32,000 nt of DNA, taken from positions 1-32,000 of the forward strand of contig JAGOIF010000016.1 of the NCBI GenBank assembly GCA_017995775.1, written 5' to 3'. The notes below the pieces were generated by a model. That model was not told where the DNA came from. It saw only the letters and a program-made list of their open reading frames with translations, and did no database searches. Each line of letters begins with the position of its first letter. Position 1 is the first letter of the stretch. Below are positions 7,788 through 18,309 of the stretch, piece by piece. Origin of the DNA: Aliarcobacter sp. GTDB lineage: Bacteria > Campylobacterota > Campylobacteria > Campylobacterales > Arcobacteraceae. The translations under genes and the position numbers were made by a program.

Positions 7788-9050
7788 ATGTTAAAAGTTG
7801 GAATTATAGGTGTAGGTACAGTAGGAACTAGTGTTGTAAATATTTTAAGAGATAATAAAAATATTATAACAGCGCGTGCTGGTGTAGAAATAGTACCTGT
7901 ACTAGGAGTAGTTTCAAACTTAAAAAAAGACAGAAATGTTGACATAAAACTAAGTGACAATATAGATGATATTTTAAATGATGACTCTATTGATGTTGTT
8001 GTTGAATTAATGGGTGGAATCGAAAAACCAAATGAGATTGTAAGAAAAGCATTACTTAAAGGCAAAGCAGTGGTTACTGCAAATAAAGCTCTTTTAGCAT
8101 ATCATAGATATGAACTTCAAGAGCTAGCTGGTGATATTCCCTTTGAATTTGAAGCAGCAGTTGCAGGTGGAATTCCTATTATTAATGCTTTAAGAGATGG
8201 TTTAAGTGCTAATCATATTATATCTATGCAAGGTATTATGAATGGTACTTCAAACTATATGCTAACTCGAATGATAAATGATGGTATTTCTTATGATGAT
8301 ATTTTAAAAGAAGCTCAGGATTTAGGTTATGCAGAAGCTGATCCAACTTTTGATGTTGGTGGATTTGATGCTGCTCATAAACTTCTAATTTTAGGATCTA
8401 TTGCTTATGGAATAGATGTTAAACCTGAAGAGATTTTAATTGAAGGTATTCAAAATATCACAAAAGCTGATATTGATTTTGCGAAAGAGTTTGAATATTC
8501 AATCAAAATTTTAGGAATTGCAAAAAAAGTCGGATCTCAAATCGAACTTAGAGTTCATCCTGTTTTAATTCCTGAAGATAAAATGATTGCAAAAGTTGAT
8601 GGCGTTATGAATGGTATCTCTGTTTTTGGTGATAAAGTTGGAGAAACTATGTATTATGGAGCAGGTGCGGGTGGCGATGCAACTGCGTCTGCTGTTATTG
8701 CAAATATTATTGATATTGCAAGACGTGGAAAAGGATCTCCAATGCTTGGCTTTGAAAACCAACCAGGAGAGAGAGTTACTTTAATGGCTAAAGATGATAT
8801 TGAAACAAAATATTATTTAAGACTTGAAGTTGCAGATAAATCAGGAACTTTAGCAAAAATTGCAACAATTTTAGGAAATAATTCAATTTCTATTGAAGCA
8901 ATGTTACAAAAACCATTAAAAAATGCAACTGCAAATTTACTTCTTACAACTCATACTTGTATAGAAAAAAATATAATAAAAGCAATAAAAGAGCTAGAAA
9001 ATTCAGGAGTGGTTTTAGTAAAACCAGCGATGATTAGAATTGAAGAATAG
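7788..9050 (+). CDS. hom: Homoserine dehydrogenase
   Basis: This enzyme reduces aspartate semialdehyde to homoserine, the branch point to threonine and methionine. The 420-residue protein has an N-terminal Rossmann fold (GVGTVGTSVV, 8-17) and the catalytic-type lysine in TANKALLA (K100). Its central domain has GIMNGTSNYML and EAQDLGYAEADPTFDVGG, and a C-terminal ACT domain (from about 345, LEVADKSGTLAKIATILG) probably mediates threonine feedback. The monofunctional form without aspartokinase is normal for this phylum. The start ATG is preceded by AGGGAAGTG. It follows the aminotransferase gene closely and precedes the MATE gene by 17 bases. Confidence 0.95.
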   Translation: MLKVGIIGVGTVGTSVVNILRDNKNIITARAGVEIVPVLGVVSNLKKDRNVDIKLSDNIDDILNDDSIDVVVELMGGIEKPNEIVRKALLKGKAVVTANKALLAYHRYELQELAGDIPFEFEAAVAGGIPIINALRDGLSANHIISMQGIMNGTSNYMLTRMINDGISYDDILKEAQDLGYAEADPTFDVGGFDAAHKLLILGSIAYGIDVKPEEILIEGIQNITKADIDFAKEFEYSIKILGIAKKVGSQIELRVHPVLIPEDKMIAKVDGVMNGISVFGDKVGETMYYGAGAGGDATASAVIANIIDIARRGKGSPMLGFENQPGERVTLMAKDDIETKYYLRLEVADKSGTLAKIATILGNNSISIEAMLQKPLKNATANLLLTTHTCIEKNIIKAIKELENSGVVLVKPAMIRIEE

Positions 9051-9067
9051 TTCTTTGAAAAATTAAT

Positions 9068-10426
9068 TTGAGAAAAAACACACAACACCTAACAACTCAA
9101 AACATTCCATCTTTAATAAAACAACTTGCAATCCCTGCAAGTGTTGGAATGTTTTTTAATACAATGTACAACGTTGTAGATACATTCTACGCAGGTCTTA
9201 TATCAACCCAAGCAATTGCAGCCTTATCTTTATCATTTATGATATTTTTCTTAATTATTGGTTTTGGATATGGTTTTTCATCAGCAATTACAGCACTTTT
9301 AGGAAATGCTCTTGGTAAAAAAAGATATAAATTAGCTTCTATTTACGCCCATAAAGGTCTATTTTTTGTACCAATTATTGGTCTTGGATTAGCTATTATT
9401 GGATATTATTCATCTCCTTTTCTTTTTAAACTTTTAGGTGCTCAAGATGAGTATTTACAAATATCTCTTGATTATATTAATCCTATTTTATTTGGTGCAG
9501 TGTTTTTTATGTTCAACTTCTCTTTAAACTCTATTTTAGTAGCCACAGGAGATACGAAGACATATAGAAATAGTTTGATATTTGGGTTCTTTGCAAATAT
9601 GACATTAAACCCTGTGTTTATTTATGGATTTTTATTTATTCCTGCTATGGGAATAAAAGGAATTGCCATATCAACGGTTTTAATTCAAGTTATAAATATG
9701 TTTTATTTACTTTTTAAAGTTCTTCAAACTAAACTTATTCACTTTGAAAAACCTGAATATTTTATTCCAAATTTAAGAGTTTATAAACAGTTTTTATTTC
9801 AAGGTTTACCTGCTAGTTTAAATATGTTAACAATGGCTATTGGTTCACTTATTCTTACTTATTTTGTATCTCATTATGGGATGCAAGCGGTTGCTGGATA
9901 TGGAATAGGTTATAGAGTAGAGCAACTTATGTTACTTCCTGCTTTAGGAATTAGTACGGCTGTTTTAACTCTTGTATCAAATAACTTTGGTGCAAAAAAA
10001 TATGATAGGGTTATAGAAACTGTAAAAACTGCACTAAAATATGGATTTATTGTAGCCACCGTTGGAATAATTGTTCTTACAATTTTGGGCAGATTCATAA
10101 TCTCACAATTTGATTCAAATGCTGTTGTTGTGGATTTTGGGGTTAGTTATTTACTTATTGAAATATGGATATTTTATGCTTATGTAGTTTTATTTATATG
10201 CGTTTCTACTTTACAAGCTATTAAAAAACCTAAGATGCTTTTATATATCGGGCTTTATAGACAAATATTTGCGAAATTAATTATCGCTTATGTTATTGTA
10301 AAATATTTTGAACTTGATTTTATATATTTATGGTTTGGTATTTTATTTATGATTTATAGTGCATCGATTTTTATTTATTTTTACACAAGAAGATTATTAA
10401 AAGAAGTTTGTAATACAACTTTTTAA
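9068..10426 (+). CDS. MATE-family multidrug/metabolite exporter
   Basis: The 452-residue protein has about 12 hydrophobic segments and the MATE N-terminal pattern: LIKQLAIPASVGMFFNTMYN, then VVDTFYAG. It is mirrored by a second half beginning near residue 240 (FLFQGLPASLNMLTMAIGS), the usual inverted pseudo-repeat. MATE proteins export cationic drugs or metabolites in exchange for H+ or Na+; the substrate is not predictable. The start is TTG at 9068, needed to include the conserved first segment; no strong ribosome binding site is visible, so it may be coupled to hom. The gene ends in a strong hairpin at 10425-10470. Confidence 0.88.
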   Translation: MRKNTQHLTTQNIPSLIKQLAIPASVGMFFNTMYNVVDTFYAGLISTQAIAALSLSFMIFFLIIGFGYGFSSAITALLGNALGKKRYKLASIYAHKGLFFVPIIGLGLAIIGYYSSPFLFKLLGAQDEYLQISLDYINPILFGAVFFMFNFSLNSILVATGDTKTYRNSLIFGFFANMTLNPVFIYGFLFIPAMGIKGIAISTVLIQVINMFYLLFKVLQTKLIHFEKPEYFIPNLRVYKQFLFQGLPASLNMLTMAIGSLILTYFVSHYGMQAVAGYGIGYRVEQLMLLPALGISTAVLTLVSNNFGAKKYDRVIETVKTALKYGFIVATVGIIVLTILGRFIISQFDSNAVVVDFGVSYLLIEIWIFYAYVVLFICVSTLQAIKKPKMLLYIGLYRQIFAKLIIAYVIVKYFELDFIYLWFGILFMIYSASIFIYFYTRRLLKEVCNTTF

Positions 10427-10470
10427 ATCAAGTAGTTATAGGAATTTTTTCCTATAACTACTATTGATTT
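10425..10470. terminator. Bidirectional terminator between the MATE gene and the copper locus
   Basis: A perfect 12-base stem (10432-10443 with 10450-10461) encloses a 6-base loop, and a further 7 bases pair outside it (10425-10431 with 10464-10470) after a 2-base bulge. It lies between two converging genes and has A/T tracts on both sides, so it should terminate both transcripts. Confidence 0.8.
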
Positions 10471-10478
10471 CTTACTAA

Positions 10479-10775
10479 TTATTTACTTCCACACTTACCA
10501 GTACCACATGAACCTTTAGTATCTTTCATGTTTTTCATATCTTTCATATCCGATTTAACATCTTTCATATCTGTTCCGCATTTTCCAGCTCCACAAGAAC
10601 CTTTTGCCTCTTTCATCATTTCTGCACCGCATTTCCCAGTTCCACAAGAAGCTTTTTTATCTTTCATCATTTCAGCTCCACATTTTCCAGTTCCACAAGA
10701 ACCTGCTGCGAATGCCATTGAAGTTCCAAGTAATGCTGTTAAAATTAATCCTACTATTTTCATTTTTTTATTCAT
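10479..10775 (-). CDS. Exported Cys/Met-rich repeat protein, candidate copper binder (HvfA/bufferin-like)
   Basis: This 98-residue protein has a signal peptide (residues 1-23, ending AFA) and a mature part that is almost pure repeat. Four SCG(T/A)GKCG motifs place cysteine pairs at 27/32, 44/49, 61/66 and 90/95. The first three lie in 17-residue units with AEMMK tails, and an M-K-D-rich linker (69-85) precedes the fourth. There is no other domain. It is the last gene of a CusCBA-type operon, 2 bases after the pump gene, with an AAGGA ribosome binding site inside that gene. Repeated GKCG motifs after a signal peptide are characteristic of the HvfA/bufferin precursors that MNIO (DUF692) enzymes turn into copper-binding RiPPs. 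No such enzyme is encoded here, so it may also act unmodified as a thiol metal buffer. Metal binding is inferred from composition and context. Confidence 0.8.
   Translation of the reverse strand: MNKKMKIVGLILTALLGTSMAFAAGSCGTGKCGAEMMKDKKASCGTGKCGAEMMKEAKGSCGAGKCGTDMKDVKSDMKDMKNMKDTKGSCGTGKCGSK
10488..10700 (-). repeat. Tandem 51-base coding repeats encoding the Cys motifs
   Basis: Three consecutive 51-base units (10700-10650, 10649-10599, 10598-10548) encode 17-residue copies that start SCG(T/A)GKCG. A partial fourth copy of the 8-residue core lies at 10511-10488. The first two units are the most similar at DNA level, which points to recent expansion by slippage or unequal exchange. Confidence 0.85.
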
Positions 10776-10777
10776 TT

Positions 10778-13700
10778 TTATATCCTTTTATTTTCTTGTC
10801 TCATAATTATAATATAAAATATTGAAGGAATTATAATTAATGTTAAGAATGCTGATGAAAGCATTCCACCTATCATTGGTGCTGCGATTCTTTGCATAAC
10901 TTCACTTCCAACACTATTTATATACATGATTGGAATTAATCCACCAAGTATTGCAAATAATGTCATAAGTTTTGGTCTTAAACGTAAAACTGCACCTTTA
11001 TAAATAGCATTAAAAACATCTATTTTCTCTATTTTTATAGCTTTTTCTTTTAATTCAATTATTGCTTCGTGTAAGTAAACAATCATCACAATAGATGTTT
11101 CAGCAGCAACTCCTAATAATGCTAAGAATCCTACGATTACAGCAATTGACATATTAAAATTTAAAAATTCTAAATAAAATATTCCTCCTGTTAATGCAAA
11201 TGGTAAAGTAAAGAAAATTATCATTGTATATGTAAAATTTCTTAAAGCCAAAAATATAAGCGCAAAAATAATCACAAAAGTTAAAGGAATAATATAAATC
11301 AATCTTTGCATTGCTGATTCTAAATATTCACTTTGTCCAGCCCACTCATAATAAAATCCACTTGGGAGTTTTAAATCTTTTAATAAAATCTCCGCTTCAT
11401 CTTTATATTGTTTAGATGATACCTCATCTTTTGGTGTGATATATATAAAATTTACATTTAATGCTTTTTCAGATTTTATGATAGAAGGTCCTTCTTCATA
11501 CTCTAACTTTGCAAACATTTTTAATGGTTGAAAACCTAATTTTGTTTTTATTTGAAGATTTTCTAAACTTATTAAATCTTCTCTTTGGCTTGTTTCATAC
11601 CTAAGACTTATTGGATATCTTTCAAGATTATGTAAAAGTGTAGATATTTGACTTCCTGCAACTCCCAAAGATATAGTTTGAATCACATCATCTTTTGTAA
11701 TACCAAATCTTGAAATCATCTCATCATTTATATCTATATTTAAATAATATCCTGAATTAATTTTATCTATTGATACAGACAAAGTTTTATCATAATTCTT
11801 TAATTTTTGTTCTATTTGTCCTGCTATTTTTTCTAATTCTTGATGATTATTCCCGTATAATTTTATTCCAATTGGTGTTCGTATACCTGTTAAAAGCATA
11901 TCAATTCGACCTCTTATTGGATAAGTCCAAGAGTTAATAAGACCTGCAATTTCTAGCTTTTTATTCATCTCTTCCATTAGTTTTTTATAACTCATTCCAT
12001 CTCGCCATTGATCTTTTGGTTTAAATGTTATTATAGTTTCTATCATTGCAAGTGGCGCTGGATCTGTGGCACTATTTGCTCGACCAGCTTTTGCAAAGAC
12101 TGTTTGAACTTCAGGAAATGATTTTAAGATTATATTTGTTTTATTTGAAAGCTCTTTTGCTAAATCTATTCCTATTCCATATGGAGTCACAGGCATATAC
12201 ATAAATACTTCTTCATTCATCATGGGCATAAACTCCCAGTTTTGTTTTTTATAAATAGGATATGCTAAAACTAATGTTCCAAAGAAAATCAAAATAACCA
12301 AATATCTAAATTTTAATGCAAGTTTTAAAATAGGGGAATAAAGCATAATAAAAAATCTATTTAAGAAATTTTTATTCTCAGCTACTATTTTGCCACGAAT
12401 TAAAAATACCATTAAAATAGGAACTATTGTAATTGAAAGAATTGCTCCACTTATCATTGCAAATGATTTAGTAAAGGCAAGTGGAGTAAATAATCTTCCT
12501 TCTTGACCACTTAATGCAAATATTGGTAAAAAAGATACAACAACTAAAATAAGTGCAAAAAAGATTGGTCTTCCTACTTGTTTTGCTGATTTTATGATTA
12601 TTTCTATTCTTTCATTATTACTTATATTCTCTTTTCCTTGAAGATATTTATGGGCATTTTCAACCATTGCAATTGTAGCATCGACCATTGCTCCAATTGC
12701 TATTGCGATTCCTCCTAAACTCATAATATTTGAGCCTATACCAAAAATCTTCATCATTAAAAATGTGATTAAAACTGTTATTGGTAAAGTTATAATTATA
12801 ATTAATGCGCTTCTAAAATGAAGTAAAAAAAGTGCACTTATTATCATCACTATAATTGATTCTTCTATTAGTGTATTTTTTAAAGTATCTATGGCTTTAT
12901 CTATTAGTGATGTTCTATCGTAGGTTTCTACTACTTCTACATCTTCAATTTTTAGGGTTTCAAGTTTTTGTTTTACGGCTTTAATAACAGAATATGGATT
13001 TTCACCAAATCTTACTATTACAATGCCACCAACTGTTTCACCTTCTCCATTTAAATCAGCCATTCCTCTTCTATTTGTGGAAGTGATATTAACATCTGCT
13101 ATATCTTTTATTTTCAAAGGAATTGCATTATCTGCTTTTATTGTGATGTTTTGAATATCAGAAATATTTTTTAAATAGGCCTTTGCTTGAATCATATGCT
13201 CAAAGCCATTTTCTAAAATAATTCTTCCACCTTTTTCATCATTATTACTAATTAATGCTTTTTTAATATCTTCAATACTTAAATCATATTGCACTAACTT
13301 ATCTTGATTTAAAGTAATCTCATAGTTTTTAATATATCCACCAATTGATGCAATTTCACTTACTCCATCAACGCCTAAAAGTGCATATTTGTAATAATAG
13401 TCTTGTAAAGTTCTTAATTCATCTAAACTTTTTGTTTTTGATTTTAAAGCGTACTCATAAGCCCATCCAACACCTGTTGCATCTGGACCCATCTTTACAC
13501 TTGAACCTTCAGGAAAAGTTCCTTGTAGGCTTGATAACTGCTCTAGAATTCTACTTCTTGCTTCATATATATCTGTTTTATCTTTGAAAATAATATATAT
13601 CATCCCATTAGAAAAAGAACTCATTGCTCGAACTGTTGAAATATTTGCTAAACTCATCAGATTTGAAATCAAAGGGTATGAGATTTGTTCTTCAATGGTT

Positions 13701-13876
13701 TTAGGACTTTGTCCATCCCATTGTACTTCTAAGATTACTTGAGGTGCTGATAAATCAGGTAAGGCATCTAGGCTTGTATTTTTTACAGCCCAAATTGAAG
13801 CAAAACTTAGAATAAAAACTGTTATTAATACTAAAAATCTATTTTTAATACTATATGAGATTATACTTTCAACCAT
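10778..13876 (-). CDS. cusA: Copper/silver efflux RND pump, CusA type
   Basis: This 1032-residue inner-membrane pump of the heavy-metal RND family is driven by protons and exports metal through a tripartite channel. The proton-relay segment GAMVDATIAMVENAHK (395-410) has D399, equivalent by offset to CusA D405. Three methionines, M561 (YMPVTP), M611 (APLAMIET) and M660 (RIDMLLTG), fall where E. coli CusA has its M573-M623-M672 copper/silver binding triad. This predicts Cu(I)/Ag(I) rather than Zn/Co/Ni specificity. The two halves each have an N-terminal helix, a large periplasmic domain and a helix bundle. It lies 6 bases downstream of the adaptor gene and 2 bases before the Cys-repeat gene. 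The triad assignment rests on remembered alignment, not a computed one. Confidence 0.93.
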   Translation of the reverse strand: MVESIISYSIKNRFLVLITVFILSFASIWAVKNTSLDALPDLSAPQVILEVQWDGQSPKTIEEQISYPLISNLMSLANISTVRAMSSFSNGMIYIIFKDKTDIYEARSRILEQLSSLQGTFPEGSSVKMGPDATGVGWAYEYALKSKTKSLDELRTLQDYYYKYALLGVDGVSEIASIGGYIKNYEITLNQDKLVQYDLSIEDIKKALISNNDEKGGRIILENGFEHMIQAKAYLKNISDIQNITIKADNAIPLKIKDIADVNITSTNRRGMADLNGEGETVGGIVIVRFGENPYSVIKAVKQKLETLKIEDVEVVETYDRTSLIDKAIDTLKNTLIEESIIVMIISALFLLHFRSALIIIITLPITVLITFLMMKIFGIGSNIMSLGGIAIAIGAMVDATIAMVENAHKYLQGKENISNNERIEIIIKSAKQVGRPIFFALILVVVSFLPIFALSGQEGRLFTPLAFTKSFAMISGAILSITIVPILMVFLIRGKIVAENKNFLNRFFIMLYSPILKLALKFRYLVILIFFGTLVLAYPIYKKQNWEFMPMMNEEVFMYMPVTPYGIGIDLAKELSNKTNIILKSFPEVQTVFAKAGRANSATDPAPLAMIETIITFKPKDQWRDGMSYKKLMEEMNKKLEIAGLINSWTYPIRGRIDMLLTGIRTPIGIKLYGNNHQELEKIAGQIEQKLKNYDKTLSVSIDKINSGYYLNIDINDEMISRFGITKDDVIQTISLGVAGSQISTLLHNLERYPISLRYETSQREDLISLENLQIKTKLGFQPLKMFAKLEYEEGPSIIKSEKALNVNFIYITPKDEVSSKQYKDEAEILLKDLKLPSGFYYEWAGQSEYLESAMQRLIYIIPLTFVIIFALIFLALRNFTYTMIIFFTLPFALTGGIFYLEFLNFNMSIAVIVGFLALLGVAAETSIVMIVYLHEAIIELKEKAIKIEKIDVFNAIYKGAVLRLRPKLMTLFAILGGLIPIMYINSVGSEVMQRIAAPMIGGMLSSAFLTLIIIPSIFYIIIMRQENKRI

Positions 13877-13882
13877 AATAAT

Positions 13883-14890
13883 TTACCACTCTTCATTATC
13901 TGATTCATAAAGTGCATTTGTTTGTGCATCTGAATCAAGTAAAAATAGGGCGTTATTTATAACTTCATCATTTTCATTTAAACCACCTAATATTTCATAT
14001 TTATTCGATGTTATTCTTTTTGCATCTATTTTAAGAGCTTCAAAATTTCCATCATCTAAGGGTTTAAAAACATAATAACTATCAGACTTTTTTAAAACTG
14101 CTGTTTTTGGAAGTGTTAGTTTTACATCCTTTGAAACTTCAATATTTACTTTTCCAAACATACTTGGAACTAGCTCATAATCTTGATTATCTACAATAAA
14201 CCGCACATCAACTGTTTTTGTTTTATCATCAAAAATAGGGTAGATAAAATCAATCTTTGTATTAATACTTTTATTTATTCCATCAATATTTATACTTGCT
14301 GTCATATCTTTTTTTATATAAGCTAATTCATTTTGATAAATAGATGCTATAAACCAAATTTTATCTAAACTAGCTATTTGAAGTAACATTTCTGCTTTTT
14401 TTACAGAACTTGAGTTGTTTATATTTTTTTCAATCAAAATCCCATTTACAGGAGAAGTTATTAAAATCCCATTTGAATCTATTTTACTATTTTTTATTTT
14501 TTCTTGTTCTTTTTTTGTAATTGCAAGATTATCAAGTTTTTGTAAACTTGAATTATAAATATTCTTATTAAACTCTTTTGCTATTTCAAGTTCACCTTGA
14601 ATACTTTGTATTTCTTGGGAATAAATAGAGTATAAAGGTGCATCTTTTTTTATTTTCATATATGTTTTATTTGCATAAAGTTTTGTGATATATCCATCAA
14701 ATCTACTTACAATATCAACTAAAGAGCTTTCATCTATTTTAGTAATTCCATAGTAACTTTTTGTGATATTTACTTCTTCTTTTTTTACTTTTACCACTTT
14801 TTTATTAAACAATTGTTTTGCTTCGATAATTTGGGCATTTAAAAAAGTACCAAAAAGTAGGGTGCTTATAAATAAAATTCTATAAATCAT
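13883..14890 (-). CDS. cusB: Periplasmic adaptor (membrane fusion) protein, CusB type
   Basis: This 335-residue protein joins the RND pump to the outer-membrane channel. It has a signal peptide (1-19), a first lipoyl half-motif (RFDGYITKLYANKTYMKIKK, about 63-82), an alpha-helical hairpin (about 90-135), and a returning lipoyl/barrel part (ITSPVNGILIEKNI, then a beta-barrel). It ends with a membrane-proximal domain. It is shorter than E. coli CusB (about 407) and its mature N-terminus lacks the Met-rich stretch that hands Cu(I) to CusA in E. coli. Its ATG overlaps the stop codon of the outer-membrane factor gene by 4 bases (ATGA), indicating translational coupling. Confidence 0.88.
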   Translation of the reverse strand: MIYRILFISTLLFGTFLNAQIIEAKQLFNKKVVKVKKEEVNITKSYYGITKIDESSLVDIVSRFDGYITKLYANKTYMKIKKDAPLYSIYSQEIQSIQGELEIAKEFNKNIYNSSLQKLDNLAITKKEQEKIKNSKIDSNGILITSPVNGILIEKNINNSSSVKKAEMLLQIASLDKIWFIASIYQNELAYIKKDMTASINIDGINKSINTKIDFIYPIFDDKTKTVDVRFIVDNQDYELVPSMFGKVNIEVSKDVKLTLPKTAVLKKSDSYYVFKPLDDGNFEALKIDAKRITSNKYEILGGLNENDEVINNALFLLDSDAQTNALYESDNEEW

Positions 14891-16071
14891 TTTATACCTT
14901 TATTTGTAAAATAAATTAATTGGGAATAGGCTTCATAATATTTTTGTAATTCATCCAAAGATTTTGTTTCATATAAGATTAATTCATTTAGATTATTTAT
15001 GCTTTCTTGTGGATTTACCTTATCAAAGCTATTGTATGTTTCTAAGTTTTTTTGGATTTTTTCTTGGATTGGTATTATTTTTTCTTTGATTAAATTATAG
15101 TTATTATATGAAGTATTTAAAGTGTTTTTTAATATCTCACTTTGTATTTTAAAGTTGTGTTTTAGTTGTTCTAATTTATCGTTGGTTTCATTTGTATTCA
15201 TTCTAGCTTGTAGTCTTGAAGCATCTTCTGTTTTGTATATAGGCAAAGGAAAACTAAGACTTAGGTTTACATAATTACTATCATCTTCTTTTTGAAAATA
15301 TCCAAGGCTTACTTCCACATCAGGAGTTTTTTTTGCACTTTCAAGTTCTGCTAAATTTTTTGATTTATTTGCACTCTCTTCTAGGGTTTTAAACTTTGGG
15401 TGGTCTTGATTTATTACTAATAAATCAATCTTATTTATATTAATTGATTCTTGGATTTTATCAATTTTTGTATATGTTATTTGTTCTAATTGCAAATATA
15501 AATTATCAATTGTATTTTTTAGATTTTGTTTTTCAAGTTCGATTTGCATTGATGATATTTGAGAATTTAATATATCATTTTGACTTGCTTTTTCATATTT
15601 ATACAAAGAATTAAAAAGTTTTTCTGTTTTTTTTATATTTTTATCAAACTCTTCTAAAAATTTATATTTCTTTTCTAAAATCAAAATATTATATGCGTAT
15701 TCATAAACCTTTGATTCTAATTCAAGCTTTTTATCTTCAAGGTTTAAACTTTGTATATTTCTATCTTTTTGCGCAATTTTTTCTTTTATATCCAATTTTC
15801 CTGCTGTTGAAATAACTTGTGATATTCCAACAAAAGAAGTTTTCATATTTTCATTATTTTTTGATGATAAATACATATCATTTACACCAAGAGATAAAAC
15901 TGGATTTTGCCACTTTTTAGATAATTCAATTTGATAATTTGCAATTTGTATGGATTTATCTATACTTTTTAAATCATAATTATTTTCATTTGTATGTTTT
16001 ACTAGCTCATCTATTGTTACAGCTTTTAATAAACAAACAAGAAAAACTAAGCATAGTAAAACCTTTTTCAT
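14887..16071 (-). CDS. TolC-type outer-membrane efflux protein (CusC/CzcC-like)
   Basis: This 394-residue protein has a signal peptide (about 1-17, ending LLKA) and long alternating helical segments rich in Asn, Lys, Glu and Leu, typical of the periplasmic helical barrel of TolC-family channels. Two family landmarks repeat in the two halves: a conserved NP in the first helix region (KWQNPVLSLGV, about 54-64) and the matching later segment SLGYFQKEDDSNYVNLSLSF, which are the outer-membrane strands. It should form the trimeric exit duct of the copper pump. It is at the short end for the family. No lipobox is present, unlike E. coli CusC. Its start shares a base with the previous stop (TAATG), and its own stop overlaps the adaptor start. 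Confidence 0.85.
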   Translation of the reverse strand: MKKVLLCLVFLVCLLKAVTIDELVKHTNENNYDLKSIDKSIQIANYQIELSKKWQNPVLSLGVNDMYLSSKNNENMKTSFVGISQVISTAGKLDIKEKIAQKDRNIQSLNLEDKKLELESKVYEYAYNILILEKKYKFLEEFDKNIKKTEKLFNSLYKYEKASQNDILNSQISSMQIELEKQNLKNTIDNLYLQLEQITYTKIDKIQESININKIDLLVINQDHPKFKTLEESANKSKNLAELESAKKTPDVEVSLGYFQKEDDSNYVNLSLSFPLPIYKTEDASRLQARMNTNETNDKLEQLKHNFKIQSEILKNTLNTSYNNYNLIKEKIIPIQEKIQKNLETYNSFDKVNPQESINNLNELILYETKSLDELQKYYEAYSQLIYFTNKGIK

Positions 16072-16454
16072 TATAAATTCACGCTACCTTTAACAGTATG
16101 AACAACATCATCATTTGTTTTAAATTTCAATTGATATTGCCAAGTTCCATTCATAGAGAAATTTATACTTACTTTATATTTTCCATCAATTAAAGTAGCT
16201 TTTTCTTCAAATTCCATATAAGGCATTCCTGGCATTTCAGGCATAAATACTTTAAATTTAACTTTCGCATCATTTATTTGTTTAGTATCTTTTGATAATT
16301 CAATGAAAATATCATTATTACCAACAATTAGAGTTTTTTCACTACTTACTTTAATCTCATAACCATCTTTTTGTCCATTTTGCTCTATTGATTCAGCATT
16401 TAAAAGACCTAAACTAATACACACTAAAACAATTATTTTAAATATATTTTTCAT
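16071..16454 (-). CDS. Met-rich FixH/YtkA-like periplasmic protein
   Basis: The 127-residue exported protein has a signal peptide (1-20, ending LLNA) followed by a single beta-sandwich-type domain. The pattern FMPEMPGMPYM (70-80), a Gly-Tyr-Lys/strand segment, then MNGTWQYQLKF (101-111) matches what I know of the FixH/YtkA-like domains found beside copper transport genes. Four methionines spaced every three residues (M71, M74, M77, M80) form a plausible Cu(I) site. It heads the structural part of the operon, where E. coli has the chaperone CusF, which is absent here, so it may fill that position. A strong Shine-Dalgarno sequence (AAAGGAGA) lies inside an inverted repeat. Domain assignment is from pattern memory; copper binding is inferred. 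Confidence 0.72.
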   Translation of the reverse strand: MKNIFKIIVLVCISLGLLNAESIEQNGQKDGYEIKVSSEKTLIVGNNDIFIELSKDTKQINDAKVKFKVFMPEMPGMPYMEFEEKATLIDGKYKVSINFSMNGTWQYQLKFKTNDDVVHTVKGSVNL

Positions 16455-16517: not shown

Positions 16518-17672
16518 TTAGAACTTTAAAGTAAAAATCGTTCCCTGTTTTAATTGTGAGTTTACTTCTATTTTTATATTATAGTTATTACAAATTTGAT
16601 TTACAATACTAAGTCCTATACCAAAACCACCTTGTTCATTGGTTGCTCTATAATATCTTTTATAGATATCTTTTAGTTTATCTTTTGAGATTCCTATTCC
16701 TGTATCTTTAATTATTAGTTCATTATTTTTAAGAGTTATTTCTATTGTTCCTGCTATTTTATTATATTTAATAGCATTAGAAATTAGATTATTAAAAAGT
16801 CTTATAAAATCATCTTTATTTATTTTATACTCAAATTGTTCTAATTGAAGTTTTATATCAATACTTTTTTTACTCGCAAGGGGAGTAAAATATTCTAATT
16901 GTTCTATTATTAGATTTTTTAAATCTACTATTTCTAAAGTATTTTTATTTTGTTTATTTTGCAAAAAAACGTAAGTTAAATCTTCATAAATCTCAGAAAT
17001 TCTTTTTGCACTTAATCTTATTCTTTGGATTTGTTTTTCATTTAGATTTGTTGTTTCTGTTGACATCAAAATTGCACTTATTGGTGTATTTAATTCATGG
17101 GTTGTATCTTTTATAAAGTTATTTAATTTTATTCTTTCATCTTTTATTGGTTTTAAAAAAAGTTTTGCTAAATAAAATCCAATTATTGCTATAAATGAAT
17201 AAATCAATAAAAATATAAATACAATATTCATTTTTAATTTACTAATTTGTTCATAAAAAAGATTCTCTTTTATCGCTATATAATAAACTCCTAAATGTCC
17301 CAAGGTTGAGGAATCAATTAAAATAAAATGCTTTTTATAATCCATTATTGTTTTTGTAAAATCAATCTCATCATCTAAATTCCCAAATATCTTTTCTTTG
17401 TTTTCATTATAAAATGAGATTTTATAATCATTTGTTTTAAGTAAATAATCTTTATCAAATTCATTATTTGTCATATGTGCAAATATTATTTTTGATGAGA
17501 TTTTTGATACTTCATTTTGCATATTTGATTTAGTTAAATCATAATATAAAGTTTTTTCATTTTGAAAATAAAAAAAAGCAAGCATTATTACTAAAATAAA
17601 AGATGAACCTAAATATAAAAAAAGAAATCGAAAAAAAGTGCTTTTTTCACTAGCAGTTAAATCTATAACCAA
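16518..17672 (-). CDS. Sensor histidine kinase of the copper locus
   Basis: This 384-residue membrane kinase has a first transmembrane helix (about 14-36), a periplasmic sensor loop of about 110 residues, and a second helix (about 149-170). A DHp domain follows with phospho-acceptor H192 in KDTTHELNTPISAIL, then an ATPase domain with the N box (NNLISNAIKYN), G1 (DTGIGIS) and G2 (GGFGIGLSIV). The sensor loop has few Met or Cys residues, so its metal ligands are not obvious. The gene overlaps the regulator gene by 23 bases. The start is uncertain: the TTG used here sits immediately against an AGGAG sequence, too close for normal initiation, so the true start may be a rare codon slightly downstream. 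The likely signal, periplasmic copper or silver, is inferred from the downstream pump genes. Confidence 0.88.
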   Translation of the reverse strand: MVIDLTASEKSTFFRFLFLYLGSSFILVIMLAFFYFQNEKTLYYDLTKSNMQNEVSKISSKIIFAHMTNNEFDKDYLLKTNDYKISFYNENKEKIFGNLDDEIDFTKTIMDYKKHFILIDSSTLGHLGVYYIAIKENLFYEQISKLKMNIVFIFLLIYSFIAIIGFYLAKLFLKPIKDERIKLNNFIKDTTHELNTPISAILMSTETTNLNEKQIQRIRLSAKRISEIYEDLTYVFLQNKQNKNTLEIVDLKNLIIEQLEYFTPLASKKSIDIKLQLEQFEYKINKDDFIRLFNNLISNAIKYNKIAGTIEITLKNNELIIKDTGIGISKDKLKDIYKRYYRATNEQGGFGIGLSIVNQICNNYNIKIEVNSQLKQGTIFTLKF

Positions 17673-18309
17673 CTCCTCTTATATTTATGATTGACTCATC
17701 TCCAACTATTTTTCTAAGATTTTTAATATAGGTTCTAATAGTTGATGCAGTTGGAGATTCTTCATATGCCCATACATTCGTACTTAATTCATCAATACTA
17801 ACTATTTTATTCTTATTTTGAATAAGATATTCCAAAACTTCACTCTCTTTTTGTGCAATATGAACTTTTGTTTCATTTATATTTATTATTAAATTTCCTT
17901 TATCTAAAGATATATTTTTTGATATTTCTATTATTGAATTTGATGAGATATTATGTAATCTTTTTATATTTTCAATACGTAAATCAAGCTCTTTTAGTTC
18001 AAAAGGTTTTTTAATATAATCATCACAACCAGATTCAAAACCTTTTTCTATGTCCTCTAGCATATTTGCAGAGGTAATAAAAATCGCTGGTGTTTTTATA
18101 CCATTTTTTCGTAATTGATTTAATAACTCAAAACCATTTATATTTGGAACATTTACATCCAAAAGTAATATATCAAAAGTCTTTGAATATATTGCGTCTT
18201 GGGCATCATCCCCTGTAAAAACTGATAAAACTGAATGTTCTTTTTCTATTAAATGCTCTTGTATTATTTCATTTAATATTAAATCATCTTCTAATAATAA
18301 TATTTTCAT
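17650..18309 (-). CDS. OmpR-family response regulator of the copper locus
   Basis: This 219-residue regulator has a receiver domain with acidic pocket E7/D8/D9, phospho-acceptor D51 (LLLDVNVP) and the conserved lysine in DYIKKPFEL. A winged-helix DNA-binding domain (about 125-219) ends in INIRGVGYRF, typical of OmpR/PhoB regulators. It is presumably phosphorylated by the overlapping kinase and activates the pump genes, like CusR or the Helicobacter CrdR. It has its own promoter (GATACAAT) with a palindrome at the expected transcription start, suggesting autoregulation. The start ATG is preceded by AAGGAA. Confidence 0.92.
   Translation of the reverse strand: MKILLLEDDLILNEIIQEHLIEKEHSVLSVFTGDDAQDAIYSKTFDILLLDVNVPNINGFELLNQLRKNGIKTPAIFITSANMLEDIEKGFESGCDDYIKKPFELKELDLRIENIKRLHNISSNSIIEISKNISLDKGNLIININETKVHIAQKESEVLEYLIQNKNKIVSIDELSTNVWAYEESPTASTIRTYIKNLRKIVGDESIINIRGVGYRFNC

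Follow-up and report, generated by a model that had tools for sequence, protein, structure and literature searches.

HvfA-family peptides are normally turned into copper binders by an MNIO, which is an iron enzyme. The modification of HvfA, formerly described as oxazolone/thioamide, has been revised to 5-thiooxazole (PMC13097082; PMC13419390), and an earlier note on the DNA analysed here, which had invoked the former chemistry, is outdated in this respect. The full-length form of HvfA was reported to be modified by HvfBC, and a form lacking the signal sequence hardly at all (PMC13419390); for bufferin, Junger et al. 2026 are cited there. FonBC, in turn, was found to tolerate single alanine changes upstream of the core as well as many substitutions at the Glu position (PMC13097082). 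Antoine et al. 2025 left open whether precursors from genomes without an MNIO, a combination that they describe as rare, are active in the unmodified state or dead, and their paper makes no mention of Arcobacter or Campylobacter (PMC12452194).

The protein studied here resembles several of these systems in part. With HvfA/oxazolin of Haemophilus influenzae and the EGKCG captophorins, such as fontiphorin, it has in common a Sec signal on a short exported peptide, repeated GKCG motifs, the NF050137 domain, and a copper context, but its motif is CG(T/A)GKCG where theirs is EGKCGEGKCG. Unlike HvfA/oxazolin, it has no adjoining MNIO, HvfC, or DoxX genes and its leader has drifted. The bufferins Buf1 and Buf2 are likewise exported Cys peptides; they buffer copper and their Sec signal doubles as the leader, but their Cys pattern is another one and they are modified. 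A likely role in handling periplasmic Cu(I) beside a Cus pump links it to CusF, PCu(A)C, and the other copper chaperones of the periplasm, but those are folded proteins with Met, His, and Trp sites, whereas the present protein is Cys-based with no predicted fold. The MNIO-linked precursors of Arcobacteraceae, e.g., that of genome G001 (L079:8649-8960), have the same locus, motif, and neighbours (Cus operon and MATE gene), and differ in having MNIO and HvfC genes directly downstream and a KLAGxxLGAAL leader.

The precursor gene lies in the window, by which is meant the whole stretch of 32,000 nucleotides that was analysed; its features are summarised in Table 1. The 98-residue open reading frame contains CG(T/A)GKCG four times, starting at residues 27, 44, 61, and 90 (spacings of 17, 17, and 29), which confirms the exported four-motif protein described in the earlier note. 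As translated from the minus-strand frame 10479-10775, the protein begins with MNKKMKIVGLILTALLGTSMAFA, followed after the predicted cleavage by AGSCGTGKCG. The Sec signal features (KK, a hydrophobic stretch, and AFA before the cleavage and A after it) were read from the sequence, and the signal has KIVGLILTALL where MNIO-linked relatives have the KLAGxxLGAAL leader. Single-sequence structure prediction gave a pLDDT of 46, with residues 3-16 as the sole helix, at low confidence.

Table 1. Features of the precursor gene and the neighbouring Cus locus in the window.
Feature	Positions	Strand	Basis or remark
Cys-repeat precursor-like protein (HvfA/EGKCG-type), 98 aa	10479..10775	-	ORF list, profile match, homologues
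Sec signal peptide, residues 1-23	10707..10775	-	read from sequence; cleavage inferred from AFA/A
Motif 1, CGTGKCG, residues 27-33	10677..10697	-	
Motif 2, CGTGKCG, residues 44-50	10626..10646	-	
Motif 3, CGAGKCG, residues 61-67	10575..10595	-	
Motif 4, CGTGKCG, residues 90-96	10488..10508	-	
cusA, Cu(I)/Ag(I) RND pump	10778..13876	-	has the three Met positions that bind Cu in E. coli CusA
cusB-type adaptor	13883..14890	-	
cusC-type outer membrane factor (OEP)	14887..16071	-	
YtkA/FixH-like exported protein	16071..16454	-	Met-rich MPEMPGMPYM stretch
Histidine kinase	16518..17672	-	
Response regulator	17650..18309	-	
MATE-like transporter	9068..10426	+	convergent with the precursor gene; anchor of the synteny
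Slot between precursor and MATE gene, 52 bp	10427..10478	.	no remnant
Terminator-like hairpin, 14 bp stem	10431..10462	.	separates the precursor and MATE genes, which converge; z = -9

The relation to HvfA-type precursors proposed in the earlier note was upheld by profile search at the level of the HvfA-family domain (NCBIfam NF050137, 47 bits where 19.5 is the cut-off, E 1.5e-12), although the protein falls below the cut-off of the full-length HvfA equivalog NF050188 (30.1 bits against 95). Given that the MNIO-linked G001 precursor is likewise far under the latter cut-off (28.7 bits), the Arcobacteraceae form is a divergent branch. Homologues were found in 54 of 104 Arcobacteraceae genomes, which, together with the E value of the domain match, argues that the gene is not a chance reading frame.

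The gene starts 2 bp after the stop codon of a CusA-type pump gene, as the earlier note had stated. The pump matches TIGR00914 at 993 bits; among solved structures, E. coli CusA is the closest (929 bits, against 444 for ZneA), and the three positions corresponding to its copper-binding methionines (M573, M623, and M672) are retained. No convincing promoter was found in the gap between cusA and the precursor, and the only terminator-like hairpin lies 3' of the precursor, which makes co-transcription with cusA likely; of the shared transcript claimed earlier, the gap and the position of the hairpin thus stand as observed, and co-transcription itself as probable from the gene layout. The same order recurs in relatives, with and without the enzyme genes: response regulator, kinase, ytkA, cusCBA, (yceI), precursor, (MNIO, hvfC), MATE, hom, aspC. 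The Cus genes lie elsewhere or are divergent in genera g9 and g15. The MATE-like gene is presumed to be one from its sequence. The recurring order makes a location with a Cus pump normal for this precursor family in Arcobacteraceae, with the MNIO of relatives sitting at the same locus, so that the placement is the norm and not the unusual arrangement for which it had been taken. The YtkA/FixH-like protein at 16071-16454, which heads the cus operon and is kept in relatives, is itself a possible Met-based copper protein.

In the 37 Arcobacteraceae genomes with PF05114 (MNIO), the MNIO gene lies directly downstream of the precursor in 36 (36 of the 54 precursor-bearing genomes), hvfC is nearly always next, and at the cus locus these two genes separate the precursor from the MATE gene. 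This slot, filled by MNIO and hvfC over about 1.5 kb in G001 and G018, measures 52 bp in the window and holds no MNIO remnant, in agreement with the earlier observation that no maturation enzyme is nearby; nor did tblastn detect MNIO remnants in the MNIO-free loci. The genome-wide search for DUF692 and DUF2063 that had been proposed recovered neither: PF05114 had no match in the window's genome (an assembly of 209 contigs, 95% complete), and PF09836 (HvfC/DUF2063), a profile which is weak on the HvfC of G001 and misses that of G018, had none in the genome or the slot. Eighteen genomes of the tree carry the precursor without an MNIO, with a precursor-MATE gap of mostly 22-34 bp; G033, counted as MNIO-free, has a weak partial PF05114 match elsewhere in its genome (50 bits). 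In a wider Campylobacterales sample, 28 of the 41 genomes with the NF050137 domain had no PF05114 match, some of them being incomplete.

A tree built from five linked housekeeping proteins places G001 and G018, the closest sampled relatives, as sister to the window's genome (SH-aLRT 99); both carry MNIO and hvfC. The genomes with a precursor require no fewer than five gains or losses of the MNIO, and under a losses-only model the window's genus alone needs four MNIO losses with the precursor kept. The gene trees of MNIO, hvfC, and yceI partly disagree. A clade of G001/G018 with g19 was rejected by the MNIO tree (p 0.002) and not by the hvfC tree (p 0.39), whereas the wider clade of the species tree, which also takes in g4, g16, and g13, was not rejected by the MNIO tree (p 0.19); a grouping of G001/G018 with g9 was not rejected by MNIO (p 0.15) and was marginally rejected by hvfC (p 0.03). 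The gene trees allow a horizontal regain of the cassette in G001/G018 as well as loss, so that loss in the window's own lineage is one of two options.

Core and leader have fared differently in the MNIO-free precursors. Scored with genus-out profiles, which were trained on the MNIO-linked precursors of other genera, the core is indistinguishable between MNIO-free and MNIO-linked precursors (24.1 vs 24.3 bits, p 0.88), whereas the leader scores 26 bits in the former and 53 in the latter (p 2e-8), both p values ignoring relatedness; the window's leader reaches 19.5 bits against 57-58 in its sisters G001 and G018. The number of Cys per precursor is likewise similar, at 7.8 in 19 MNIO-free and 8.0 in MNIO-linked precursors, and the conservation of the Cys motifs among homologues, one of the points raised in the earlier note, is borne out by an unchanged core in those 19. 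The leader motif [KR][LIV]AG.[LMI]LG[AT] is present in 33 of 36 MNIO-linked and in none of 19 MNIO-free precursors; it was written by eye after the sequences had been seen, which does not apply to the genus-out profile, and its direction is the same in 4.9 of 5 independent pairs, for which a sign test gives at best 0.0625 and p<0.05 is unreachable. G034 has both kinds, the MNIO-adjacent copy keeping its leader (38.6 bits) and the copy at the cus locus not (-1.3 bits). Met content is 10.3% in MNIO-free and 6.6% in MNIO-linked precursors, relatedness being ignored. The four copies of the motif in the window differ from one another at C, G, and K codons by silent changes only, and hom, aspC, and cusA have diverged from those of G001/G018 by 0.37-0.43 at fourfold sites; it follows that selection acts on the Cys motifs despite the absence of an MNIO. 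The missing Glu in the window's precursor does not by itself exclude modification, given the tolerance of FonBC at that position.

The reading that we favour, at a probability of roughly 0.6, is that this captophorin-type homologue of the MNIO-copper-peptide precursors works unmodified, in a lineage without MNIO and HvfC, as a Cys- and Met-based buffer of periplasmic Cu(I) that is coupled to CusCBA. Of the two options offered in the earlier note, a precursor served by enzymes encoded elsewhere or an unmodified thiol buffer, the conserved core and drifted leader favour the second, and the first is unsupported. The precursor would be made together with the Cus pump, and presumably co-regulated with it, exported by Sec, and left unmodified; its eight thiols, held in CGxGKCG pairs and aided by Met-rich spacers, would bind and buffer periplasmic Cu(I), and the bound Cu(I) might be passed to CusB/CusA. 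Metal binding is also pointed to by PCu(A)C copper chaperones that carry the same motif as a C-terminal tail in G033 and G034; no PCu(A)C was found in the window's own genome. The unprotected periplasmic Cys of the precursor could be disulfide-bonded, which would count against the buffer reading.

A wider proposition, which we consider unlikely, sees in the EGKCG-type peptides an older class of periplasmic copper thiol proteins that work without modification and are mostly MNIO-free across Campylobacterales; the MNIO would be optional, being gained and lost, and in part of the order a GMC flavoenzyme pair would take its place. Several loci bear on such partners. GKCG peptides adjoin a PF13618 gluconate-2-dehydrogenase-subunit-3-like gene with a twin-arginine-like start and a GMC oxidoreductase gene, sometimes with DoxX (L119:8125-11121; L185:225-2641; L175:4427-6836; L171:4217-6871; L176:4013-7327), and these loci, from MNIO-free Campylobacterales of several families, possibly represent an alternative partner system. 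Other arrangements were also encountered: PCu(A)C chaperones ending in SCGxGKCG repeats (L126:7614-8141 and L125:7478-8074); a 171-residue Cys/Met-rich protein of G058 with two SCGAGKCG motifs, many other Cys stretches, and no Pfam match (L128:8171-8686); tandem duplicated precursors in G019 (L091:8509-8826 and 8870-9151), one with a lipoprotein-like signal (LTGC); and further tandem GKCG peptides, one of each pair with a lipoprotein-like signal ending in GC (L176:6258-6836, L177:6885-7391, and L188:4174-4664).

That another oxidative system, such as the GMC oxidoreductase/gluconate-2-dehydrogenase-3 pair, modifies or uses the window's precursor is distinctly unlikely. Operons or divergent pairs joining a GKCG peptide to PF13618 and GMC genes occur in G085, G104, G162, G314, G143, and G235, and of 18 MNIO-free carriers 17 have a GMC homologue, as do 4 of the 50 genomes that lack the precursor, although genome size or lifestyle may account for this distribution. 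Within the genus of the window, however, the pair is unlinked to the precursor, and the window's genome shows only a contig-end fragment; since the pair is also present in the MNIO-bearing G001 and G018, it is no substitute for the MNIO and is retained only as a lead.

CusA-type RND pumps transport both Cu(I) and Ag(I), and the metal cannot be told from Cys motifs alone, so that an unmodified thiol protein with a main metal or role other than copper (silver, zinc, or redox) should also be weighed; it is rendered quite improbable by the retention of all three copper-binding Met positions in CusA and by the presence of the precursor's motif in PCu(A)C copper chaperones. Modification in trans, by an MNIO missing from the fragmented and slightly incomplete assembly or lying at another locus, has very little probability, as the assembly runs unbroken through the usual slot and shows nothing in it, the leader recognition sequence has drifted, and closed genomes with the same precursor lack PF05114 anywhere (e.g., G002, G006, G010, G011, G025, and G029). 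It is equally hard to believe that the precursor is a decaying relic whose function was lost with the enzymes, for while its leader has drifted and related smaller genomes such as G003 and G013 have no precursor, all eight Cys, the four motifs, and the open frame are intact, the motif copies differ only silently in their C, G, and K codons at a fourfold divergence of about 0.4 from G001/G018, and 18 MNIO-free genomes from four or more genera still have the gene.

That precursors exist, rarely, in genomes without an MNIO was known already (PMC12452194); the new element is a series of matched precursors at a single locus, in which core and leader have had separate fates. This split provides evolutionary support for the Sec signal as the leader of the enzyme. 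Since the gene occupies one locus in close relatives whether or not they have the enzymes, the question of whether such peptides function unmodified becomes testable with matched orthologues.
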